Positions 33,234 through 45,515 of a DNA stretch of 64,000 bases are shown piece by piece. The DNA comes from Sinorhizobium garamanticum. GTDB taxonomy: Bacteria > Pseudomonadota > Alphaproteobacteria > Rhizobiales > Rhizobiaceae. The position numbers were made by a program, and so were the translations under genes. Numbering within the stretch: position 1 is the first letter of the stretch; each line of letters begins with the position of its first letter. The notes under the pieces were generated by a model. It made no database searches, was not told the DNA's origin, and worked only from the letters and a program-made list of their open reading frames with translations. Where the stretch lies: the NCBI RefSeq assembly GCF_029892065.1, contig NZ_CP120373.1, positions 1,609,501 through 1,673,500 of the forward strand, in the 5' to 3' direction.

Positions 33234-34157
33234 TCAGGCGCTGCGGGTCGGCCGGTCGAGAATGCGGCGGCCGAAGAGACTTGCCGTCAGCTCGACCAGG
33301 ACGCGGGCGCTCTTGCCGCGGTCGTCGAGGAAGGGGTTGAGTTCGACGACGTCGAGCGATGAGACGAGATCGCTGTCGCAGAGCATCTCCATGATCAGAT
33401 GAGCTTCGCGGAATGTCGCACCGCCCGGCACCGTGGTGCCGACACCAGGTGCAATTTCCGGATCCATGAAATCGACGTCGAGGCTCACATGCAGGAGGCC
33501 GTTGGCGGCGCGGACCTCATCGAGGATCTGACGCATGATGTGGGCCATGCCAATCTCGTCGACGGCGCGCATGTCGTAGACATTGACGCCGTGCTCGGCG
33601 ATCTCCTCGCGCTCGCGCGCATCGACCGAGCGAATGCCGATCTGATAGACCCTCGTCGGGTCGACCAGCGGCCGATCGCTGGCGAGGATCGGGGCGAATT
33701 CCGCCTCGCCGCAGAAGAAGGCAACGGGCATGCCATGCATGTTGCCGGAGGGCGAAGTGACCGGCGAATTGAAGTCGGCATGCGCATCGAGCCAGAGGAC
33801 GAAAAGCGGCCGGCCGACCGCATCGGCGTGGCGCGCCATGCCGGAGACGCTGCCCATGGAAAGCGCATGGTCGCCACCGAGGATGATCGGGAAATGTCCC
33901 TTGCGGGCGACGTCGTGTACGGCATCGTTCAGCGCCCGGGCAAAGGCTGCGACCATCTGCAGATTGTTGGCGCGCGGATGATTGGCGAGGTCGCGTGCCG
34001 GCAGCGGCCGGACATCGCCTTCGTCGTGAACCGTATGGCCGAGTTCGGCCAGAACCGTGTCGATGCCGGCGATCCTCAGCGCCGTCGGGCCCATGGCCGC
34101 GCCGCGCCGTCCGGAGCCTTCTTCGATGGGTGCGCCGATCAAGGTGATGGTCTTCAT
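33234..34157 (-). CDS. argI: Arginase
   Basis: The 307-residue ureohydrolase splits arginine into ornithine and urea. The Mn-binding motifs are 'GGDHALSMG', 'LDAHADFN' and '[14 protein letters not shown]'. The N-terminal '[19 protein letters not shown]' is typical of arginase rather than agmatinase. ATG 34157 is preceded by a purine-rich AGGAAGG region. It is divergent from an Lrp-type regulator 140 bases away, the likely controller. Confidence 0.93.
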
Positions 34158-34274
34158 TTCCGCCTTTTCCTTCCTCTGATTCCCCGCAAGAATGGCGCGG
34201 ATTATCGTCAAAAGGCGTGACAGCAAAAAGATGGAAAACTGTCGATTGGAAGGCTATCATCGCCATATTGATAA

Positions 34275-34286
34275 GGCAAATTTGCC
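34275..34286. promoter_or_regulatory. GGCAAATTTGCC palindrome between argI and lrp gene
   Basis: This perfect 12-base palindrome lies 11 bases before the regulator start and 117 bases before the argI start. It is A/T-centred like Lrp-family sites. I infer an autoregulatory and argI-rocD control site. Confidence 0.5.
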
Positions 34287-34297
34287 AAATTGAGAAC

Positions 34298-34732
34298 ATG
34301 GACGATCTCGACCAAACCCTCATCAGCGCGCTCAGACAGAATGCGCGCATACCGGTCTCGACGCTTTCGGCAATGACGGGCGTGTCGCGCGCGACTGTCG
34401 CCGCACGCATCGATCGGCTGGTGGCGAACGGAACAATTGCTGCCTTCACGATCCGGACCGGCTCGGAAATTCCGACGTCCGGTGTGCGCGCCGTCGTCAT
34501 GATCGAAGTTCACGGCAAGATGGCCGACCGCGTCGCGGATCAGTTGCGCGGCTTGCCGCAGGTCAGGGCGCTGCACAGCACCAACGGGCGGTGGGATTTC
34601 ATCGCCGAGCTTGAGGATCGCGACCTCGTCAGCTTCGATGAAACGCTGAGGCGTATTCGGCTCATCGATGGAATCACTGTGACAGAGACCAATATCCTTC
34701 TGAAGACCAGCAAGATGAGCGGTGCGTTCTGA
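34298..34732 (+). CDS. Lrp/AsnC family regulator of arginine catabolism
   Basis: This 144-residue protein starts at 'MDDLDQTLISALRQNARI', the standard Lrp N-terminus, although the frame is open further upstream. The helix-turn-helix is at ~18-45 ('TGVSRATVAARIDRLV'), followed by a RAM domain with 'STNGRWDFIAELE'. Divergent from argI-rocD with a palindrome between, it most likely activates that operon in response to arginine or ornithine. The target is an inference from position. Confidence 0.87.
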   Translation: MDDLDQTLISALRQNARIPVSTLSAMTGVSRATVAARIDRLVANGTIAAFTIRTGSEIPTSGVRAVVMIEVHGKMADRVADQLRGLPQVRALHSTNGRWDFIAELEDRDLVSFDETLRRIRLIDGITVTETNILLKTSKMSGAF

Positions 34733-36449: not shown

Positions 36450-39400
36450 CTAATACTCCCTTTCGAAGAAGATGCCGCCGGCAGCCGAGCCGTCGCCGGC
36501 GGCCTCGCCCTTCAGCTTGACGCCCCTTCCGACATCGAAATTGATCACAGCCTTGCTGGAGCTCGAATCCGAGCCCTGCTGCAATTCGAGGTAAGTGCGG
36601 TCGTTGAGGTATTTGCCGGCCCGCAACTGCGCGCCGCCGCTCTCGTCGGTCGTTATGTCGAGATCGTCGACGCCGAGTTTGTTGCGCAGACCGTCAAGCA
36701 CGGATGTCGAGCCGCCGCCGGCGAGTTGGCTGACGGCTGAGGCGAGTTGAGCGATCTGGAAGGCCGACAAGTTGGAAAGCGACCGGTTGAAGATGAGGCG
36801 CGCCAGGATTTCGTCCTGGGGCAGCGCCGGCGAGGAGGAGAACGTCACCTGCGGATTGTTGGCGAGCCCGGAGACATTGACGGTGATGGTCGTCGAGCCG
36901 GCGCTCGAGGTGGCGTCGAGGTCGAGTGTCGGAATCAGATCGCCGCCGAAACCGATCCGCCCTCGGGTGAACGTGAGGCGCTTGCCGAGAATTTCGAGCC
37001 GCCCGCGCCGCATGTCGAAGCCGCCGGAGACGATCGGCTGCACGGCAGTGCCACGGATCGTCAGCTCGCCGCCAAGCTCCGCATCGATGCCGCGCCCACG
37101 CACGAAAAACTGTCCCGGGGCACTGACGGCGAGATCGAATGCGATCAAGCCGCGGGCCTCGGCTCCTGCGGAGGTGTCCCTGCGCAGGTTCCTTGCCATC
37201 TGCTGCACGTTGGCCGGGGCGTTCCTATGCGTGATGTCGATCTCGGATAAAGAGGTGGGCAGCTTTTCCGGAATAGTGATTGCCGCGCGGCGGATCGTCA
37301 GCCTGCCGCCGAGCACCGGCGTGGCGACGAGCGGCCCCCTGAGCGTCAGGTCGCCGGCAAGGTTTGCCGTAAAGAGCGTGCCGTCGACATAGGTCGCGTT
37401 GTTGAGGCGGATCCTCAAATCCGCAGGGAAACCGGAACCGGCCGCGATCCCGACGGTCCCGCTCGCCTCGATCGAGCCCCCGGTGGCGAGATTGGTGGAA
37501 AGCCTCGAAATCGTCGCCTGCCTGCCGTCGAGTGTGACATTTGCTGTAAGGTCGTTGAAAGCGAGGTTACGCCGGACGTCGACCAGCCGTCCGCCGGCGG
37601 TCCTGATCGTGCCGGAGATCTGCGGCGCCCTCGCCGAGCCGGAAAGCGAGAGATCGATGGTCGCGGAGCCGGTGAGCGTGAAACCGTTTTCCGCCATGAG
37701 GTTGGCAAGCAGCGCGAAGGGCACGTTGCCCGAGAATTTCATCGAAAGCGGCATATTGCCGCCAAGCTCGACGGTACCGCCGCCCCTGATGGACAGCCCT
37801 GAGGCGCCCGACAATACCGTGTCGAGCGTGACGCGATTGTCGACGAGCCTGCCTTTCGCGGTAATGTCGACCGCGCCGACGCCCGCCGAACGCACCTGCG
37901 CCACGGAAGCACCGCTCCATTTGAGATCGTATACGACCACCGGCGCGGCCGGAGTTCCGTCGATGTCCACCGTTCCGGCGATAGTGCCTTCCGCTCCGAC
38001 GGTGGGCGCGAAACTGTTGATCAGAGCAGCGGGCATCGCGTTTAGTCGCGCCGAGATATCGAGCTTTTCCCCCGCCGTGCCGGTGACCGTGATGGTTCCC
38101 CTCGACGCCTGAATGACGAGGTCCTTGAGACGCACGATGGTATCTTCGATCGCCACGGTGGTCGGCTTGGCGAGCTTCAACGGAATCCGCTTCGGCGTCG
38201 CAGAGAAGGAAGCAAGACGGACTTCGGTGCGGCCTCCGCCCCTGAAAAGATCGCCTTTTGCCGCAAGCGGCCCGCCGTCATAGTTTCCGTCGATCGAGAA
38301 ACCCGTCCTGTCGCCCTGTTGCTCGAAGGCGAGATTAAGGCCGGAGAGACGATTTTGTCCTTGCGCGATGCTTTCCGCCTTGACGCTGCCCCTAATGGCG
38401 AGCGCGGCGACATCGGCGATGCTGATGTCCGCCACAGGCTTTGCGATCGTCAGGGCATCGCGCTTGATACCGCTGCCGCTTGCCTTGACTGACACGGAGG
38501 TGATTCCGTCGACGGTGCGGACTGTCGCGGAACCGGCGAGATCGCCGGACGCCGTCTGGCCGGCCATCGCCGCCAGCAGGCCGAGATCAGGCAGGGTGAA
38601 GTCGATCGTGCCGTCCGGCTTGAAGTCGGGCGTCAGGTTGAGCCTGCCGGTCAGCCGGTTGTCGCCGATCGTTGCCTGCAAAGTCGGGATCGCGGTGCGG
38701 CCGTTCTCGGACACGACGTCGGCCCGCACATCGATCGCCTGGCCACCAAGCGCGCCTGTCGCGGTCAGCTTCGCCTGCGGGCTACCGGGTTTCGCGGTTG
38801 CGTCGGCATTGATCACCAGGTCGGACAGCCCGCGGCCGGCCAGCGTTGCGCCGCTGGAGGTCATCTCCGCCTTCACGCCGAGTTCGTTGAGCGGGCCGGA
38901 GATGTCGGCGCTGAACGCGGCCTTGCCCTGTGCGTCCGCGAGCAGCTTGCCGAGGTTGGGCAGGGTGCCTTCGATCGCCGCGGTCAGAGCGCCTTCGGCG
39001 AGCGTGGCGGAGCCGGTGGCGTCGACAGTGCCGGATGCCAGTTGCAACGCGCTCAGCTTGACGCTGCCGCCTTCGCCGGTCTCGACCTTGCCGGAGAGCG
39101 CGATCGTCCTGTCGAATTTTGCCGCGAGGCCGGGGGGCAGCAGATGCGGTTCGGCGAACAGCTTGAAGTCGGCAGCAGCGGTCGCATTCGCCCGGTTCAG
39201 GCGGCCGGTGACGTTGCCACGGAAGTCGCCGCTTTCGATCGTCATCGGATCGAAGCGGACCTCCCCTTCGGCAACCGTGACCGTGCCTTTCGCCGTGACG
39301 TCCTGCGCGACGATGCCGGCGGAGCGAACCGATGCGATCGAGGCGCCATTCCAGACGAGCTCGTAGCCGACCACCGGTGCGGCTGCCGCCCCGCTGACAT

Positions 39401-42400
39401 TGACGGTGCCGCCGATCGCGCCCTCGGCGCCGAGCGTCGGGGCGAAGGTGTTGATCAGGGTGGCGGGCAGCGCGTTGATTTGCGCCGAAATGTCGAGTTG
39501 CTCGCCGGCGGTGCCCGCGACGACAATCGAGCCGTCGGACGCAAGGATGGTGAGATCGCCGAGGCGAACGATGCCGTTTTCGATGGCGACGGTCGTCGGT
39601 GCGGCAAGCTGCACCGGCACCCGCTTCGGCGTTGCCGAGAAGGATGCCAGCCGGACCTCGGTGCGGCCGGCATCGCTGACGAGATCGCCTGTCGCCGCGA
39701 CCGGTGCGCCATCATAGGCAGCGTTGATCGAGAAGCCCGTCCTGTCACCCTGCTGGTCGAAGGCGAGGTCGATGCCCGAGACACGGTTTTCTCCCTGGCC
39801 GAGGCTTTCGGCGCCGATGGTGCCCCTGATTGCCAGCTTGGCGATATCGGCGATGCTGATATCGGCGGTGGGCTTGGCAATCGTCAGCGCATCGCGGCTG
39901 ATGCTGCCGCCGCTTGCCTTGACCGCAATCGACGTGACGCCATTGACGGTGCGCACCGTTGCGGAACCGGCAAGATCGCCGGACGCGGTCTGGCCGGCCA
40001 TCGCCGCCAACAGGCCGAGATCGGGCAGGGTGAAGTCGATCGTGCCGTCCGGCCTGAAGTCGGGGGTGAGGTTGAGCGCGCCGGTCAGCCGGTTGTCGCC
40101 GATCGTCGCCTCCAGGGTCGGGATCGAGGTGCGGCCGTTCTCGGACACCACGTCGGCCCGGGCGTTGATCGCCTGGCCACCGAGGCTTCCGGTTACGGTC
40201 AGCTTGGCTCGAGGGTTGTTCGGTGTCGCCGTCGCATCGGCGTTGATTCTGAGATCTTCCAGCGTGCGGCCGGCCAGCGTTGCGCCGCTGGAGGTCATCT
40301 CCGCCTTCACGCCGAGTTCGTTGAGCGGTCCGGAAATGTCGGCGCTGAACGCGGCCTTGCCCTCTGCGTCCGCGAGCAGCTTGCCGAGGTTGGGCAGGGT
40401 GCCTTCGATCGCCGCGGTCAGAGCGCCTTCGGCGAGCGTGGCGGAGCCGGTGGCGTCGACGGTGCCGGATGCCAGTTGCAACGCGCTCAGCTTGACGCTG
40501 CCGCCTTCGCCGGTCTCGACCTTGCCGGAGAGCGCGATCGTCCTGTCGAATTTCGTGGCGAGGCCGGGGGGCAGCAGATGCGGTTCGGCGAAGAGCTTGA
40601 AGTCGGCAGCGGCGGTCGCATTGGCGCGGTTCAGGCGGCCGGTGACGTTGCCACGGAAGTCGCCGCTTTCGATCGTCATCGGATCGAAGCGGACGTCGCC
40701 TTCGGCAACCGTGACCGTGCCTTTCGCCGTGACGTCCTGCGCGACGATGCCGACGGAGCGAACCGAGGCGATGGATGCGCCGTTCCAGACGAGCTCGTAG
40801 CCGACCACCGGTGCGGCTGCCGCCCCGCTGACATTGACGGTGCCGCCGATCGCGCCCTCGGCGCCGAGCGTCGGGGCGAAGGTGTTGATCAGGGTGGCGG
40901 GCAGCGCGTTGATTTGCGCCGAAATGTCGAGTTGCTCGCCGGCGGTGCCTGCGACGACAATCGAGCCGTCCGACGCAAGGATGGAGAGATCGCCGAGGCG
41001 GACGATGCCGTTCTCGATGGCGACGGTCGTCGGTGCGGCAAGCTGCAGCGGCACCCGCCTCGGCGTTGCCGAGAAGGATGCGAGCCGGATTTCCGTGCGG
41101 CCGGCACTGCTGACGAGATCGCCCGTGGCTGCGACCGGTGCGCCATCATAGGCAGCGTCGATCGAGAAGCCCGTTCTGTCACCCTGCTGGTCGAAGGCGA
41201 GGTCGATGCCCGAGACACGGTTTTCTCCCTGGCCGAGGCTTTCGGCGCCGATGGTGCCCCTGATTGCCAGCTTGGCGATATCGGCGATGCTGATATCGGC
41301 GGTGGGCCTGGCAATCGTCAACGCATCGCGGCTGATGCTGCCGCCGCTTGCCTTGACCGCAATCGACGTGACGCCATTGACGGTGCGCACCGTCGCGGAA
41401 CCGGCGAGATCGCCGGACGCGGTCTGGCCGGCCATCGCCGCCAACAGGCCGAGATCGGGCAGGGTGAAGTCGATCGTGCCATCCGGTTTGAAGTCGGGCG
41501 TGAGGTTGAGCGCGCCGGTCAGCCGGTTGTCGCCGATCGTCGCCTCCAGGGTTGGGATCGAGGTGCGGCCGTTCTCGGAGACGACGTCGGCGCGGGCGTT
41601 GATCGCCTGGCCGCCGAGGCTTCCAATTGCGGTCAGTTTGGCTTGAGGGTTGTTCGGTGTTGCCGTCGCATCGGCGTTGATTCTGAGATCTTCCAGCGTG
41701 CGGCCGGCCAGCGTCGCGCCGCTGGAGGTCACCTCCGCCTTCACGCCGAGTTCGTTGAGCGGACCCGTGATCGAAGCGCGGAACGCCGCCGCACCCCGGG
41801 CATCGGCGATAAGCCTGCCGAGATCGGGTAGGCTGCCCTCGATATCCGCGGTCAATGCGCCGTCGGCGAGTGTCACGGTGCCCGAAGCATCGAGGGTTCC
41901 GGATTTGACTTCGAGGTTGCTCAACCGGACGCTGCCGTCCTCACCGGTTGCGACGCCTCCCGTTGCCGCAATCGTGCTGTCAAACTTTGCGGCAATGCCG
42001 GGCGGCAGCACGCCGGGCACCGCGAAGAGCTTGAAGGCTGCCGCGACGGTCGTATCGGCACGGTTCAGGTTGCCGGAGACGCTGCCCCCGATGCTCGCGC
42101 TTTCGATCGTCAGCGGATCGAAGCGAATGCTCTCCGGCCCGACGTCGATCGTTCCGTCTACCTTCACGGGCGCCTTGATCGCCCGGTCGAGATCGGCACT
42201 TGCAAAACGGCTCTCGCCGACTTCGGCCGTCGTCTTCAGCGGCCCGGATTGTGTTTCCAGGTTGAAGGCATCGCTTTGCGCCGAAAGCCGAACGGCGCCA
42301 AGGCTCATCTGCGGCAGAGAGATCGAAGGGAGATCGCCGGCGATGTCGAGGATAGCCGAATGTCCGTCGCCGATCAGCGAGAGATTGGCGGTGTTGATCA

Positions 42401-43493
42401 GCGCGCGCAACTCGCCATCTCGCAGCGGCCAGCGGAAGTCGATGGGACCGCTGGTGCCCACAAGGCTTGCCTGAAGGTTGTTTTCGCCCTTGCTGTCGAC
42501 CGTTCCGGCTGCGTTGAGTGTCAATGCGCCGGTGGAAACCTTGCCGGCCTCGATCTCCACCTTGCTCGATCCATCGAAGGCGGCCGTCACGTCAATGCTC
42601 GTTGTTCCTTCGAACAGCGGCTTGAAGACCGCCGGCGCGAGTGACACCAAGGCGCCACCGCCGGCGATGGTCAAGCGGCGCATACCGTCCGCGGCCTGCA
42701 CATGGCGCCCGTCGAGCCGGAGGATCTCGTTGCCGTCGAGCGAGGCAGTGCCCGATCCCGCCCAATCGGAAAGCGGCCCTTCACCGGTCAAGGTGATGTC
42801 GACAGCCGGCTCGCCCGGCAAGCGGAGCAGCTTGGCGAGCAATCCTCCCTTCGGTTCGGCGACCTTCGCTTCCAGTTTCAGTTGATTGCCGGCCGGATTG
42901 AAAAGGATATCCGCGACGGCGTGCGCCTCCGGGCGATCGCGCTCGGCGGCATCGAAGGCAAGAGCGATGCTGGAATTCGTGGCGTTGGCATTGCCGCGCG
43001 CGGTCAGGAACTGGTCCTCGCCGGCGATCGCCTTGCCGATCATGATCTCCTTGAGATCGAAGGCGTCGATCTTGACCTCGACCGGCAGTGCGAAACTCCT
43101 CCGCACCTCCCTCGTTTCGGTCGAGGGAATGGGCGTGCGTTCGACACGGATCGAACCCGCCGCAATCTGGCTCGCATCGAACCGCATGGACAGGAGCTCG
43201 ACCGGCGACCAGTTGACCGACAGGTCACGGATTTCCGCATAGATCCCCTGTCCGTCGAAAAGCGTGACCGAGCCGGCCTTGAAATCACCGGTCAACAGAG
43301 CGCTCGGATCCGAGATCCGGACGATCTGGTCGGGCGTTGCCGCATATTTCTCGATTGCCCAGGCGACGAGCCGCGCGCCGGGTGTCGTGAAGCCGACAAA
43401 GGCGATGATGAGGAGGAGCAGGACCACAAGAGTGCCGAGGCCGGCAAGAAGAAAGCGCAGCCCGGATCGAAGGAAGCGGATGACCTGATTCAT
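36450..43493 (-). CDS. tamB: Translocation/assembly module TamB, expanded by tandem units
   Basis: This 2347-residue AsmA/TamB-type protein has an N-terminal inner-membrane anchor (about 12-36), a very long beta-rich periplasmic region, and the C-terminal DUF490 domain ('RGRIGFGGDLIPTLDLDA', 'LPQDEILARLIF', final 'GIFFEREY'). It probably forms a long hydrophobic groove bridging inner and outer membranes, working with TamA next door in outer-membrane protein insertion or lipid transport. E. coli TamB is about 1260 residues. The excess is due to three tandem units of 478 residues at about 445-922, 923-1400 and 1401-1878. tamA is 99 bases upstream, same strand. Confidence 0.94.
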   Translation of the reverse strand: MNQVIRFLRSGLRFLLAGLGTLVVLLLLIIAFVGFTTPGARLVAWAIEKYAATPDQIVRISDPSALLTGDFKAGSVTLFDGQGIYAEIRDLSVNWSPVELLSMRFDASQIAAGSIRVERTPIPSTETREVRRSFALPVEVKIDAFDLKEIMIGKAIAGEDQFLTARGNANATNSSIALAFDAAERDRPEAHAVADILFNPAGNQLKLEAKVAEPKGGLLAKLLRLPGEPAVDITLTGEGPLSDWAGSGTASLDGNEILRLDGRHVQAADGMRRLTIAGGGALVSLAPAVFKPLFEGTTSIDVTAAFDGSSKVEIEAGKVSTGALTLNAAGTVDSKGENNLQASLVGTSGPIDFRWPLRDGELRALINTANLSLIGDGHSAILDIAGDLPSISLPQMSLGAVRLSAQSDAFNLETQSGPLKTTAEVGESRFASADLDRAIKAPVKVDGTIDVGPESIRFDPLTIESASIGGSVSGNLNRADTTVAAAFKLFAVPGVLPPGIAAKFDSTIAATGGVATGEDGSVRLSNLEVKSGTLDASGTVTLADGALTADIEGSLPDLGRLIADARGAAAFRASITGPLNELGVKAEVTSSGATLAGRTLEDLRINADATATPNNPQAKLTAIGSLGGQAINARADVVSENGRTSIPTLEATIGDNRLTGALNLTPDFKPDGTIDFTLPDLGLLAAMAGQTASGDLAGSATVRTVNGVTSIAVKASGGSISRDALTIARPTADISIADIAKLAIRGTIGAESLGQGENRVSGIDLAFDQQGDRTGFSIDAAYDGAPVAATGDLVSSAGRTEIRLASFSATPRRVPLQLAAPTTVAIENGIVRLGDLSILASDGSIVVAGTAGEQLDISAQINALPATLINTFAPTLGAEGAIGGTVNVSGAAAAPVVGYELVWNGASIASVRSVGIVAQDVTAKGTVTVAEGDVRFDPMTIESGDFRGNVTGRLNRANATAAADFKLFAEPHLLPPGLATKFDRTIALSGKVETGEGGSVKLSALQLASGTVDATGSATLAEGALTAAIEGTLPNLGKLLADAEGKAAFSADISGPLNELGVKAEMTSSGATLAGRTLEDLRINADATATPNNPRAKLTVTGSLGGQAINARADVVSENGRTSIPTLEATIGDNRLTGALNLTPDFRPDGTIDFTLPDLGLLAAMAGQTASGDLAGSATVRTVNGVTSIAVKASGGSISRDALTIAKPTADISIADIAKLAIRGTIGAESLGQGENRVSGIDLAFDQQGDRTGFSINAAYDGAPVAATGDLVSDAGRTEVRLASFSATPKRVPVQLAAPTTVAIENGIVRLGDLTILASDGSIVVAGTAGEQLDISAQINALPATLINTFAPTLGAEGAIGGTVNVSGAAAAPVVGYELVWNGASIASVRSAGIVAQDVTAKGTVTVAEGEVRFDPMTIESGDFRGNVTGRLNRANATAAADFKLFAEPHLLPPGLAAKFDRTIALSGKVETGEGGSVKLSALQLASGTVDATGSATLAEGALTAAIEGTLPNLGKLLADAQGKAAFSADISGPLNELGVKAEMTSSGATLAGRGLSDLVINADATAKPGSPQAKLTATGALGGQAIDVRADVVSENGRTAIPTLQATIGDNRLTGRLNLTPDFKPDGTIDFTLPDLGLLAAMAGQTASGDLAGSATVRTVDGITSVSVKASGSGIKRDALTIAKPVADISIADVAALAIRGSVKAESIAQGQNRLSGLNLAFEQQGDRTGFSIDGNYDGGPLAAKGDLFRGGGRTEVRLASFSATPKRIPLKLAKPTTVAIEDTIVRLKDLVIQASRGTITVTGTAGEKLDISARLNAMPAALINSFAPTVGAEGTIAGTVDIDGTPAAPVVVYDLKWSGASVAQVRSAGVGAVDITAKGRLVDNRVTLDTVLSGASGLSIRGGGTVELGGNMPLSMKFSGNVPFALLANLMAENGFTLTGSATIDLSLSGSARAPQISGTIRTAGGRLVDVRRNLAFNDLTANVTLDGRQATISRLSTNLATGGSIEASGTVGIAAGSGFPADLRIRLNNATYVDGTLFTANLAGDLTLRGPLVATPVLGGRLTIRRAAITIPEKLPTSLSEIDITHRNAPANVQQMARNLRRDTSAGAEARGLIAFDLAVSAPGQFFVRGRGIDAELGGELTIRGTAVQPIVSGGFDMRRGRLEILGKRLTFTRGRIGFGGDLIPTLDLDATSSAGSTTITVNVSGLANNPQVTFSSSPALPQDEILARLIFNRSLSNLSAFQIAQLASAVSQLAGGGSTSVLDGLRNKLGVDDLDITTDESGGAQLRAGKYLNDRTYLELQQGSDSSSSKAVINFDVGRGVKLKGEAAGDGSAAGGIFFEREY
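37860..39293 (-). repeat. TamB internal repeat unit 3 (478 codons)
   Basis: Last unit, residues 1401-1878. The first third is nearly identical to unit 2. From 'GLSDLVINADATAKPGSP' on it is clearly diverged, for example 'SVKASGSGIKRDALTI' and 'NLAFEQQGDRTGF', and leads into the single-copy C-terminal part. Confidence 0.88.
39294..40727 (-). repeat. TamB internal repeat unit 2 (478 codons)
   Basis: Middle unit, residues 923-1400. Its first third matches unit 3 with three residue changes (D/E, T/A, E/Q) and its last two thirds match unit 1. It is therefore a hybrid, as expected for the product of an unequal crossover between units 1 and 3. The DNA is near-identical over long stretches, so it is a likely recombination and assembly hot spot. 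Confidence 0.9.
40728..42161 (-). repeat. TamB internal repeat unit 1 (478 codons)
   Basis: First unit in protein order, residues 445-922. Its first third ('RFDPLTIESASIGGSVSG', 'AIADARGAAAF'-like part) is diverged from the other units. Its last two thirds, from 'TLEDLRINADATATPNNP' on, are nearly identical to unit 2, with about a dozen residue changes by eye. Anchor sequences recur at exactly 1434 bases. Confidence 0.9.
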
Positions 43494-43592: not shown

Positions 43593-45515
43593 TCAGAAAG
43601 ACTGACCGATGCCGGCGTAGATGCCGAAGTCGGTCCCGTCGGGATATTTGTTGAGCGGGACCGCAAAATCCAACCGGATCGGTCCGAAGGACGTAGCATA
43701 GCGCAGACCGATGCCGGCGCCGGCGCGGATGTCGGAGAAATCGGGCGTCGTCGAGTCCGAAACGGTACCGGCGTCGAGGAAGGGGACGATGCCGATCGTG
43801 TCGGTAATCGCGATGCGCGCTTCCAGCGAAGTGCTGACATAGGAGCGGCCGCCGGTCGCGTCATTGTCGGCATCGCGCGGGCTGATCTCCTGGAAGGAAT
43901 AGCCGCGTACCGACCCGCCCCCGCCGAGGAAGAAGCGCCGAGGCGCCGGTATGTCGGCGAGTTCGTCACCGCCGACAAGCACACCGGCGCCGAGCTTGCC
44001 GGCGAGCACGAAACGCTTTTCCTCGCCCAGCGCATAGTAGCCGGAGGCCGAGGCCTCGAACGAGCTGAAGAAGGTTTGTCCTTCGATCTCGTAGCTCGGT
44101 TTGGCGTTGATCAGTGCCCGATAGCCTTCCGTTGCGTTCAGCTTGTCGTCACGCGTGTCGCGGACATATTCGAGCGGGATGCTGGCGGTGAGATACGAGT
44201 TCTTGCCGAAAGCGTCGTCGACGTCCGCCCAGCTCAATTCCGCCCCGCCCGAGAAAGTATCCTGCGGCGAAAGCTCAAAGGTCGCGCCGGCTGCCGCGGT
44301 AATCATCTTTGCGCGGTAGGCGTCCGGGTCGACGAGGCTTGCCTGGAGGCTGGCAGTGAAGGTCGATGCCGGCCCGAAGGCGCCTGGCTTTGCGAACAGG
44401 ATACCGGCGGAATAGTCGAGGCCGCCGATATCCGTGGTCTCGCCGATGCGGTTGACCGCGCCTTCAATTCGCAAGGACTCCGCGCGGCCGAACAGATTGC
44501 GATGGCCCCAGTAACCCTGCACGCCGAGGCCGTCCGTGGTCGAGACCTGCCCGCCGAAACCGAAATACCGGTGCTTTCCCTCGGAGACCTCGATGTTCAT
44601 CGGGATCCTGCCGTCCGGTGTTAGCGTATCGGCTTCCTTGATCGTGACGCTCGAGAAGACGTTCAATTGACGCAGGCGTTCCGCTGCCTTGCGGATGTTT
44701 TCCGGCGAATAGGGGCGGCCGTTGTTGAGGCGGGAATAATCCCTGACGAAATTCGGATCGACGGTTTTCGTGCCGGTAACCGTGAGCTGTCCAACCGGTG
44801 CCACGGGCCCGCCGGAGGCGCTGATCGTCACGTCGACGGTGGATGTGGCATGGTCGGCGACGACGCTGCGTTCCGTCAGCTTCGCCAGCGGTCGGCTCTG
44901 TTCCTTCAGATCGTCGACGATCTGCTCGCCCGCCTTGATTATCAATGTCGAGTCGGCGCGGGCGCCGCGCTTCAGATCGTAAGCGGCCGGATCGAGCCCG
45001 GCGGCATCGCCTCCGAACCTGATCGAGTCCAATGTAAACGCCGGCCCGGGCATGACGCTGACCGAAACCGGCACAGGTTTGCCCTTGGGAAAGGTGGGAT
45101 CGGGCGGCAGGCTGTCGATATTCTGTCCGTTGATCAGAATGGTAATGGTTCCGCCGTAGCGCGCCTTCTCATAAAGGCCCGCGAGAATACGGTCCCTGTC
45201 GTCGCGTGCCTTGATCGCGAGGCCGAGATCGCCGGAGACCGGATTTTCCCTGTCCTGGAAGAGCAGCGAACTGTTCTCGATGGCCTCCCGTAGCTCCTTG
45301 TCATCGGTCCCGGGCTCGAATGTCAGGGCATAGTTGACCGGGTTGATGACCTGGACTTCTTCCTCGTCGCTTTCGAAGAAGCGCATGCCGAAGAGCCTGA
45401 ACGCATGGGCCTGGTCGATGGAAAACGGGGCGAGCAGCGCCGAAGCCACAACTGCGAGAGCGGTCGCTGCCTTCCAGTGCGCAATGCTCGATCGTGCTGG
45501 AGACATCCCCCGCAT
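43593..45515 (-). CDS. tamA: Outer-membrane assembly factor TamA
   Basis: This 640-residue Omp85-family protein has an N-terminal signal peptide (hydrophobic core ~17-30, cleavage near 'AHA') and a periplasmic POTRA region to about residue 330 ('YSRLNNGRPYSPENIRKAAERL' is a POTRA helix). The C-terminal 16-strand barrel has the hallmark 'FFLGGGGSVRGYSF' (the VRGY/F motif) and a terminal Phe ('YAGIGQSF'). It lies upstream of tamB on the same strand with a 99-base gap; together they form the TAM complex across the envelope. Either of two closely spaced ATG codons (45515 or 45506) may be the start. Confidence 0.93.
   Translation of the reverse strand: MRGMSPARSSIAHWKAATALAVVASALLAPFSIDQAHAFRLFGMRFFESDEEEVQVINPVNYALTFEPGTDDKELREAIENSSLLFQDRENPVSGDLGLAIKARDDRDRILAGLYEKARYGGTITILINGQNIDSLPPDPTFPKGKPVPVSVSVMPGPAFTLDSIRFGGDAAGLDPAAYDLKRGARADSTLIIKAGEQIVDDLKEQSRPLAKLTERSVVADHATSTVDVTISASGGPVAPVGQLTVTGTKTVDPNFVRDYSRLNNGRPYSPENIRKAAERLRQLNVFSSVTIKEADTLTPDGRIPMNIEVSEGKHRYFGFGGQVSTTDGLGVQGYWGHRNLFGRAESLRIEGAVNRIGETTDIGGLDYSAGILFAKPGAFGPASTFTASLQASLVDPDAYRAKMITAAAGATFELSPQDTFSGGAELSWADVDDAFGKNSYLTASIPLEYVRDTRDDKLNATEGYRALINAKPSYEIEGQTFFSSFEASASGYYALGEEKRFVLAGKLGAGVLVGGDELADIPAPRRFFLGGGGSVRGYSFQEISPRDADNDATGGRSYVSTSLEARIAITDTIGIVPFLDAGTVSDSTTPDFSDIRAGAGIGLRYATSFGPIRLDFAVPLNKYPDGTDFGIYAGIGQSF

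Follow-up and report, generated by a model that had tools for sequence, protein, structure and literature searches.

A TamB protein of Sinorhizobium garamanticum with three tandem 478-residue modules, the middle one probably rewritten from its neighbours

The tamB gene in a 64,000-nucleotide stretch of the Sinorhizobium garamanticum genome (the window, at its full length; contig NZ_CP120373.1, positions 1,609,501 to 1,673,500) was found to carry three head-to-tail units of 478 codons. It is considered probable that the groove of the TamA-TamB complex was lengthened by in-frame duplication of this module, that the third module was inherited rather than newly gained, and that the middle module has been rewritten from its neighbours. 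The features concerned, in positions of the window, are as follows.

36450..43493, minus strand: tamB, three-unit form, 2347 aa (open reading frame and PF04357 match)
42174..43493, minus strand: N-terminal flank of TamB, aa 1-440, unrepeated by self-comparison, the basis of the reference tree
40740..42173, minus strand: unit 1 (U1), aa 441-918 (self-comparison at a fixed lag)
39306..40739, minus strand: unit 2 (U2), aa 919-1396, a chimera with a unit-3-like 5' part and a unit-1-like 3' part
40265..40281, minus strand: best single switch in unit 2, unit-3-like to unit-1-like, nt 458-474 of the unit
37872..39305, minus strand: unit 3 (U3), aa 1397-1874 (self-comparison at a fixed lag)
36453..37505, minus strand: C-terminal TamB (DUF490) domain, aa 1997-2347 (PF04357 profile match)
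43593..45515, minus strand: tamA, 640 aa, with POTRA domain and Omp85 barrel, directly upstream of tamB (open reading frame and profile matches)

The C-terminus of the protein (aa 1997-2347) matched PF04357 with 195.2 bits against a cut-off of 22.4 (E 2.7e-57), and tamA lies on the same strand, separated from tamB by 99 bases. The score against the NCBIfam equivalog ATportTamB was below the cut-off (208 bits vs 825 needed), as was that of TamA against its own equivalog (132.1 vs 625 needed). Because the equivalog threshold was missed, the naming as TamB relies on the Pfam match and the gene neighbourhood: by these the protein is a member of the TamB family, and membership in the same equivalog as ATportTamB is not implied. 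A hydrophobic stretch around TamB residues 13-34 was visible in the translation.

When the gene was compared with itself at an offset of 1434 nt, approximately aa 441-1396 proved homologous to approximately aa 919-1874. The identity of the best 300-nt window was 98.7% at lag 1434, 86.7% at lag 2868 and 46.3% at the next best lag, and the frame ran without interruption along the whole array. The phase of the units is free by about 10 codons, and a span of 37860-42161 denotes the identical array offset by 12 nt. Tandem Repeats Finder, the longest period of which is 500, found nothing. A general repeat search returned only 300-nt copies at 67-68%, its reference copy having fallen in the diverged part. 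Whole-protein self-BLAST gave no internal matches, even in a protein known to have three units; the full diagonal probably masked them, and a windowed comparison was used in its place. No convincing sub-repeat was found within the 478-aa unit by profile self-comparison of 69 units (best 69.5% probability over 65 columns).

Unit 2 has a mosaic structure. It matched unit 3 at 97.3% in the initial 474 nt (vs 71.9% for unit 1) and unit 1 at 95.6% in the final 960 nt (vs 75.7% for unit 3). The places equivalent to the switch are 41699-41715 in unit 1 and 38831-38847 in unit 3. The switch falls inside the stretch formed by the motifs LNELGVKAE (aa 579, 1057 and 1535) and TSSGATLAGR (aa 589, 1067 and 1545). 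The fit assumed one switch in a fixed order, unit-3-like first and unit-1-like second, and 37 of the 374 informative sites in the source genome (G000) did not conform to it. The initial annotation, made from this sequence alone, had named the gene TamB, described three tandem in-frame 478-codon units and placed the main switch of a mosaic unit 2 in this motif stretch, and the domain match, the neighbouring tamA, the lag comparison and the segment identities bear it out on each of these points.

Unit number was compared in 33 genomes of the genus Sinorhizobium, one per species. Three units were present in 11 and two in 18, one array was gapped, and the gene was split in three genomes; unit number thus varies between species of the genus. 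TamB with one unit, 1388-1393 aa long (1393 being the open frame in G102), was found in Ensifer adhaerens and its kin. On the tree of the flank, all seven resolved members of the source genome's clade had three units, and one further member was gapped. Between the source genome and the other six, the divergence of the N-terminal flank is 4.5 to 12.3%. Since every resolved member has three units, the third unit was probably inherited from before the split of the clade's members. Neither a two-unit nor a four-unit relative was found within the clade among the 33 genomes and the best 120 of 222 protein matches, which disfavours frequent copy-number change there. Among the same 120 matches, no protein of 1869-1874 aa was more than 75% identical to the source TamB; one partial protein of 1342 aa with 89% identity was not countable.

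These comparisons agree with the initial annotation in that a single unit would leave a TamB of normal size (about 1391 residues), that an earlier state with two diverged units existed, and that TamB length varies between relatives, here as one, two or three units in different species. Its proposal that a recent crossover added a unit in this genome was not supported: with three units in every one of the seven resolved clade members, a single recent addition is not the preferred reading. The flank tree constrains the number and direction of copy-number changes loosely, since its backbone is weak and holding all three-unit genomes together was only marginally rejected (p-AU 0.028), while holding the two-unit genomes together was not (0.086). 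G017, G026 and G031, with a split gene, were omitted from this tree and from the unit analyses, and G029, with undetermined bases within the array, from the unit analyses; G018, with a small indel in unit 1, was omitted from the site-by-site and segment analyses.

In eight genomes, namely all seven resolved clade members and one further species, the middle unit was a chimera of units 1 and 3 of its own genome, the switches falling into five regions. One switch without misfits was found in G005 (unit nt 1033-1088) and G028 (674-710), and one switch with 3-8 misfits in G032 (894-899), G016 (827-957), G015 (422-473) and G027 (461-462). The unclean cases were the source genome and G025, in which 73 of 396 sites misfitted. 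The one-switch model left 199 and 214 misfits in G023 and G004, whose arrays are old. The exact runs at lag 1434 span a complete module together with the stretch shared at the switch (G005, 1488 nt; G028, 1469 nt).

When each of 10 three-unit genomes was compared with the nearest of the other nine, units of the same genome were closer to one another than to the equivalent unit of that nearest genome in eight cases for the 5' segment and in seven for the 3' segment, where G025 was mixed; G023 and G004 showed the opposite. Trees of 46 unit segments from the 10 three-unit genomes and 8 of the 18 two-unit genomes paired units within the genome in seven genomes for the 5' part, the source genome being unresolved, and in eight for the 3' part. 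G023, G004 and G018 had three old units, orthologous by position and without recent rewriting, and the units of G018 were nearest to the equivalent units of G004 (78-80%). The near-identity of unit 2 to its neighbours is better explained by later, repeated rewriting than by recent addition.

According to the proposed mechanism, the two-module form is widespread in Sinorhizobium, the three-module form was probably inherited by the clade of the source species, and homologous recombination between misregistered modules would keep rewriting the middle module from both neighbours, module 1 remaining anchored at its start and module 3 at its end. The sequences appear to fit loss and regain by unequal crossover and long misaligned gene conversion equally well. 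A strict form of the latter, with three stable units and a middle one overwritten by long misaligned conversion between sister chromosomes, is a serious possibility, given somewhat less than even weight. It would account for the constant unit number in the clade, and the patchy sites left in G027, G015, G032 and G016 resemble small tracts. Moreover, dS between units 1 and 3 was somewhat lower in the middle of the unit (0.50-0.62 vs 0.64-1.60 in other blocks; G000 and G027), a dip that was absent between the units of two-unit G014 (0.87 and 1.26). However, the misfit-free single switches of G005 and G028, which extend over the full 1434-nt period, would require tracts of nearly a whole unit.

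The effect of an added module on the groove was considered using an AlphaFold2 model of the flank with units 1 and 2 (pLDDT 84.4, pTM 0.51). In this model, secondary structure was identical at 97.3% of positions between the two units, each having 30 strands of at least 6 residues. The global shape is uncertain because of the pTM and the spread of pLDDT over five models (57.7 to 84.4). No sequence relative was found among solved structures at E 0.01, and Foldseek gave only matches of low TM-score (at most 0.17 by query) to other beta-rich proteins, apolipoprotein B100 being the first. Each unit would perhaps add about 30 strands, or roughly 7-9 nm by scaling from E. coli, which is not a measurement; the number being even, the insertion would extend the groove with its register kept. 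For the E. coli protein, published lengths lie between 17.8 nm (by AlphaFold) and 24.6 nm (by molecular dynamics; PMC11014939), and another author judged TamB too short to bridge (PMC6791001). In both, a groove of repeated beta modules is proposed as an inter-membrane lipid carrier (PMC11014939, PMC6791001). Because the estimated gain from one module would exceed what a straight rod needs to cross a periplasm like that of E. coli, slack, tilt or curvature is expected and not a wider periplasm.

Long TamB proteins elsewhere in Rhizobiaceae are also repetitive. Repeats were present in 25 of 25 closed frames of at least 1800 aa vs 0 of 29 frames of 1300-1480 aa in the main census, which used stop-to-stop frames, running somewhat long, at E 1e-6. 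A looser census (first ATG, E 1e-4), in which several frames were shortened, found repeats weakly in 8 of 34 such short frames; the frame of G045 was cut by the coordinates chosen in the family census. The other tandem modules measured about 100-108, 512-532, 560-570 and 619-626 aa, so that unit sizes differ among genera with no shared value. Whether TamB was short or long, the open frame of TamA was 642-667 aa, in 17 of 17 genomes. Open frames of the MlaD-domain protein, an indirect proxy of periplasm width, were 459-503 aa in 16 of the 17 genomes and 987 in G054.

That the long forms reflect neutral ratcheting, leaving bridge function unaffected, is less likely than not. The constant size of TamA and the lack of a common unit size would suit such ratcheting, but orthologous dN/dS between G000 and G032 (one genome pair) was about 0.15-0.17 for each unit and 0.16 for the N-terminal flank, showing that all units are under purifying selection like that on single-copy sequence, and none of the seven resolved clade members showed a deletion between near-identical units, which would be easy. 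Values for the C-terminal flank of the same pair (0.555, 0.671) were invalid and were dropped, since the sequences differ in length by 2 aa and were compared without gaps.

Tentatively, TamB length in Rhizobiaceae may be regarded as an evolvable modular quantity that was lengthened several times by differently sized modules, from about 1390 to 2350 aa, at constant TamA size. Periplasm width would therefore not dictate bridge length as a strict ruler; extra modules might give the bridge slack, reach or capacity for lipids, and strains of one species may differ in unit number. The findings bear on how a periplasm-spanning bridge is matched to the inter-membrane distance. TamB with one, two or three modules exists naturally in Sinorhizobium and Ensifer, in some cases in laboratory-friendly species, while TamA hardly changes in size. 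Such a series lends itself to direct comparison of periplasm width, lipid transport and envelope integrity at different natural lengths, and its natural boundaries would allow the clean removal of a module.

Separate recent gains of the third unit in every three-unit species, by unequal crossover from a two-unit ancestor, are improbable. Misfit-free chimeras with genome-specific switches (G005 and G028) are the signature of fresh addition, and two-unit relatives are common in the genus, but seven parallel events without a surviving two-unit sister would be required, and neither a two-unit clade member nor, among the 120 best matches, a close relative of two-unit length was found. An assembly artefact can practically be dismissed: draft genomes G017, G026, G029 and G031 break or gap within the array, as hard repeats would, and the near-perfect repeats of G027 and G028 come from assemblies of 120 and 100 contigs, but the two near-identical stretches of the source array differ at 13 and 42 sites, so that it is not a simple assembly duplication, and arrays of three units are likewise present in other genomes assembled into 3-5 contigs (G005, G015, G016, G023, G032).

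Inheritance of the third module with rewriting of the middle one may be set beside known systems. With TamB, the inner-membrane partner of TamA (PF04357/DUF490), the protein shares the C-terminal domain, the adjacent tamA and a predicted long beta-sheet structure; however, it has 2347 aa, vs 1259 in E. coli and about 1390 in several related genera, and three 478-aa modules. A groove of repeated beta modules, predicted here, with proposed lipid carriage between membranes is likewise attributed to the repeating beta-groove or bridge-like lipid transfer proteins (AsmA-like proteins and YhdP, and VPS13 and ATG2 in eukaryotes). Unlike in those proteins, the modules described here can be aligned at the DNA level and bear signs of continuing recombination, and lipid transfer is putative. 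In bacterial surface proteins and adhesins, misregistered recombination homogenises intragenic tandem repeats and alters their number in frame. There, exposed adhesins and antigens are changed, whereas here the same kind of process would act on a periplasmic assembly and lipid-transport factor and on a very large unit of 1434 nt.

The TamB protein of the window is encoded by an open reading frame of 2347 aa, which contains the whole interval of the initial annotation. The PF04357 C-terminal TamB domain was found at aa 1997-2347 (195.2 bits), and the gene follows, on the same strand, that of TamA, a POTRA-Omp85 protein. Because neither protein reached the NCBIfam equivalog cut-offs for TamB and TamA, the two names rest on Pfam and neighbourhood. 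When tamB was slid against itself, aa 441-1396 aligned with 919-1874 at a lag of 1434 nt (478 codons), and unit 1 aligned with unit 3 at 2868 nt; the next best lag gave only 46.3% in its best 300-nt window. Therefore, tamB contains three head-to-tail units (U1-U3 in coding direction), as had been proposed from the sequence, and the product is a real, well-formed three-module protein.

Features of the tamB locus (window positions)
43593-45515, minus strand, tamA, POTRA-Omp85 protein
36450-43493, minus strand, tamB
40740-42173, minus strand, U1 (tamB self-comparison)
39306-40739, minus strand, U2 (tamB self-comparison)
37872-39305, minus strand, U3 (tamB self-comparison)

On the plus strand, an open frame of 929 aa (39042-41831) lies across the array. 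Its openness is probably a by-product of the repeat copying its own frame and does not point to a gene. The gene immediately downstream of tamB belongs to the APH phosphotransferase family (PF01636; 35505-36437, minus). An arginase-family gene (33234-34226, minus) is divergent from an Lrp/AsnC-type regulator (34217-34732, plus); the frames as listed overlap by 10 bases, and their start codons are unsure.

Unit number was compared across 33 genomes of the genus (Sinorhizobium). The TamB open frame was 2348-2353 aa long in 11 of them and 1870-1875 aa in 18. G029 had a 1454-aa frame with undetermined bases, and tamB was split in three draft genomes (G017, G026 and G031); the breaks in all four fell inside the array, a pattern to be expected when draft assemblies meet near-identical repeats. 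Eight related loci carry Sinorhizobium or Ensifer names, including S. terangae, S. psoraleae, S. glycinis and S. saheli, and some three-unit database records are likewise named Ensifer. Ensifer adhaerens and its kin have one unit, with database proteins of 1388-1392 aa, which bears out the predicted single-unit length of about 1391 residues; G102, with an Ensifer-type unit, had a 1393-aa open frame. The commonest lengths step by exactly 478 (2347-1869 and 1869-1391).

The initial annotation regarded the third unit as a recent addition in the window's genome (G000). This was not upheld. In a tree of the unrepeated tamB flanks of 32 genes, seven resolved three-unit genomes, including G000, and the gapped G029 formed one clade (support 100/100), within which the N flank (aa 1-440) of the resolved members was 87.5 to 95.5% identical. 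All seven resolved members have three units, which makes it probable that the third was already there before they diverged. Other three-unit genomes stood elsewhere on the tree (G016; G018, G023 and G004 together). The tally of three copy-number changes on this tree takes in the one-unit outgroup; inside the genus, the minimum is two changes between the two-unit and three-unit states, each of which could be a gain or a loss. The backbone was weak. Holding all three-unit genomes together was marginally rejected (p-AU 0.028), and rejection was not reached for two-unit genomes held together (p 0.086).

The mosaic structure of U2 was confirmed. Its first 474 nt were 97.3% identical to U3 vs 71.9% to U1, and its last 960 nt were 95.6% identical to U1 vs 75.7% to U3. 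One switch, placed at U2 nt 458-474 (window 40265-40281), accounted for 337 of 374 informative sites and, judged by motif positions, lies inside the stretch where an exchange had been suggested. The same analysis was applied to ten three-unit genomes (G018 was omitted because of an indel): each site differing between U1 and U3 was scored by which of them U2 matched, and one switch per genome was fitted in the preset order, unit-3-like and then unit-1-like. In 10 of 10 genomes, U2 was closer to U3 5' of the switch and closer to U1 3' of it. Exceptions to a single switch were absent in G005 and G028, few in G032 (3), G016 (4), G015 (5) and G027 (8), and more numerous in G000 (37), G025 (73) and the old arrays of G023 (199) and G004 (214). 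The other eight switches fell into five separate regions, since those of G015, G027 and G000 overlap or nearly so and that of G032 is within the G016 range.

Fitted position of the U2 switch (unit nt)
G015, 422-473
G027, 461-462
G000, 458-474
G028, 674-710
G025, 729-752
G016, 827-957
G032, 894-899
G005, 1033-1088

The longest exact runs at lag 1434 (G005, 1488 nt; G028, 1469 nt) correspond to a complete unit together with the stretch shared at the switch. Unit identity within each genome was also compared with the identity of a unit to its counterpart in the closest of the nine remaining three-unit genomes. For the 5' segment, own-genome units were the more alike in 8 of 10 genomes; for the 3' segment they were so in 7 of the 10, and G025 was mixed (91.0 against 88.4 and 91.9). 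G023 and G004 showed the opposite pattern. Trees of 46 unit segments, from the ten three-unit and 8 of 18 two-unit genomes, placed U2 with its own U3 in seven genomes for the 5' segment, with G000 unresolved (62/56). For the 3' segment, U2 joined its own U1 in eight genomes; G023 and G004 units clustered by position. In the two-unit genomes, the first unit grouped with U1 starts (100/100) and the second with U3 ends (96/91). These sequence relationships indicate that the array ends are anchored and that the middle unit is a recombination product, renewed after species split.

Two routes could have led to this renewal: loss of a unit and its regain by unequal crossover, or misaligned gene conversion over long tracts with the copy number unchanged. 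The clade has three units throughout, and none of the 120 matches listed (of 222) was a two-unit protein with more than 75% identity; both observations lean towards the conversion route, or towards the crossover route in combination with selection for three units. Judged by dN/dS pairs for G000 vs G032, all units are under selection and the middle one is without decay (N flank 0.037/0.237; U1 0.052/0.347; U2 0.072/0.427; U3 0.073/0.429).

TamB length was also studied in the family, with tamB taken from 80 of the 138 genomes with a match; length had played a part in choosing the first 20, and the shares given here therefore do not estimate population values. Among 79 closed stop-to-stop frames from 76 genera (E 1e-6, at least 50 aa), internal repeats were absent from the single frame below 1300 aa and from all 29 of 1300-1480 aa. 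They were present in 11 of 16 frames of 1480-1600 aa, in all 8 of 1600-1800 aa and in all 25 of 1800 aa or more. A looser count, made from the first ATG at E 1e-4 with the window's own protein left out, gave repeats in all 24 proteins of 1800-2190 aa and in 8 of the 34 that measured 1378-1437 aa (31-45% identity); the long forms are thus not alone in having a weak period of about 100 aa. The period in the 25 long frames was about 100-108 aa in 13 and 512-532 in eight, with single cases of about 504 (with 92; G115), 560-570 (G095), 619-620 (G131) and 622-626 (G104). In G131 (L097, G131:C66:55700-64700), the two copies of the 619-codon duplication share a 1751-nt exact run and have 100% protein identity across several windows. 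In TamB of several other genera, represented by G055, G059, G133 and G054 (L086, L087, L088 and L091), long arrays of an approximately 101-aa module replace the large units, mostly from about aa 810 to 1900.

In a protein tree of the units, all Sinorhizobium units and the G102 unit formed one clade (100/99), and Pararhizobium units stood apart. Units paired within their own genome in G131 (100/100), G104 (99/92), G095 (100/99) and G111 (94/87); those of Pararhizobium, G134, G043 and G175 clustered by position. Thus, TamB appears from these groupings to have been lengthened several times in the family, although homogenisation can mimic independent origin. Across the order, a tamB match at E 1e-20 was obtained in 31 of 71 sampled genomes; the open frame measured 1300-1550 aa in 21 of the 31.

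No report of tandem modules in Rhizobiaceae TamB was found in literature listings or in passages of PMC12800296, PMC10665443, PMC8824477, PMC11014939, PMC4494059 and PMC6791001, a search that covered few subscription papers. Of more interest than the array itself is that its middle module has been rewritten repeatedly and that, in this family, a predicted envelope bridge appears to have been lengthened by modules more than once.
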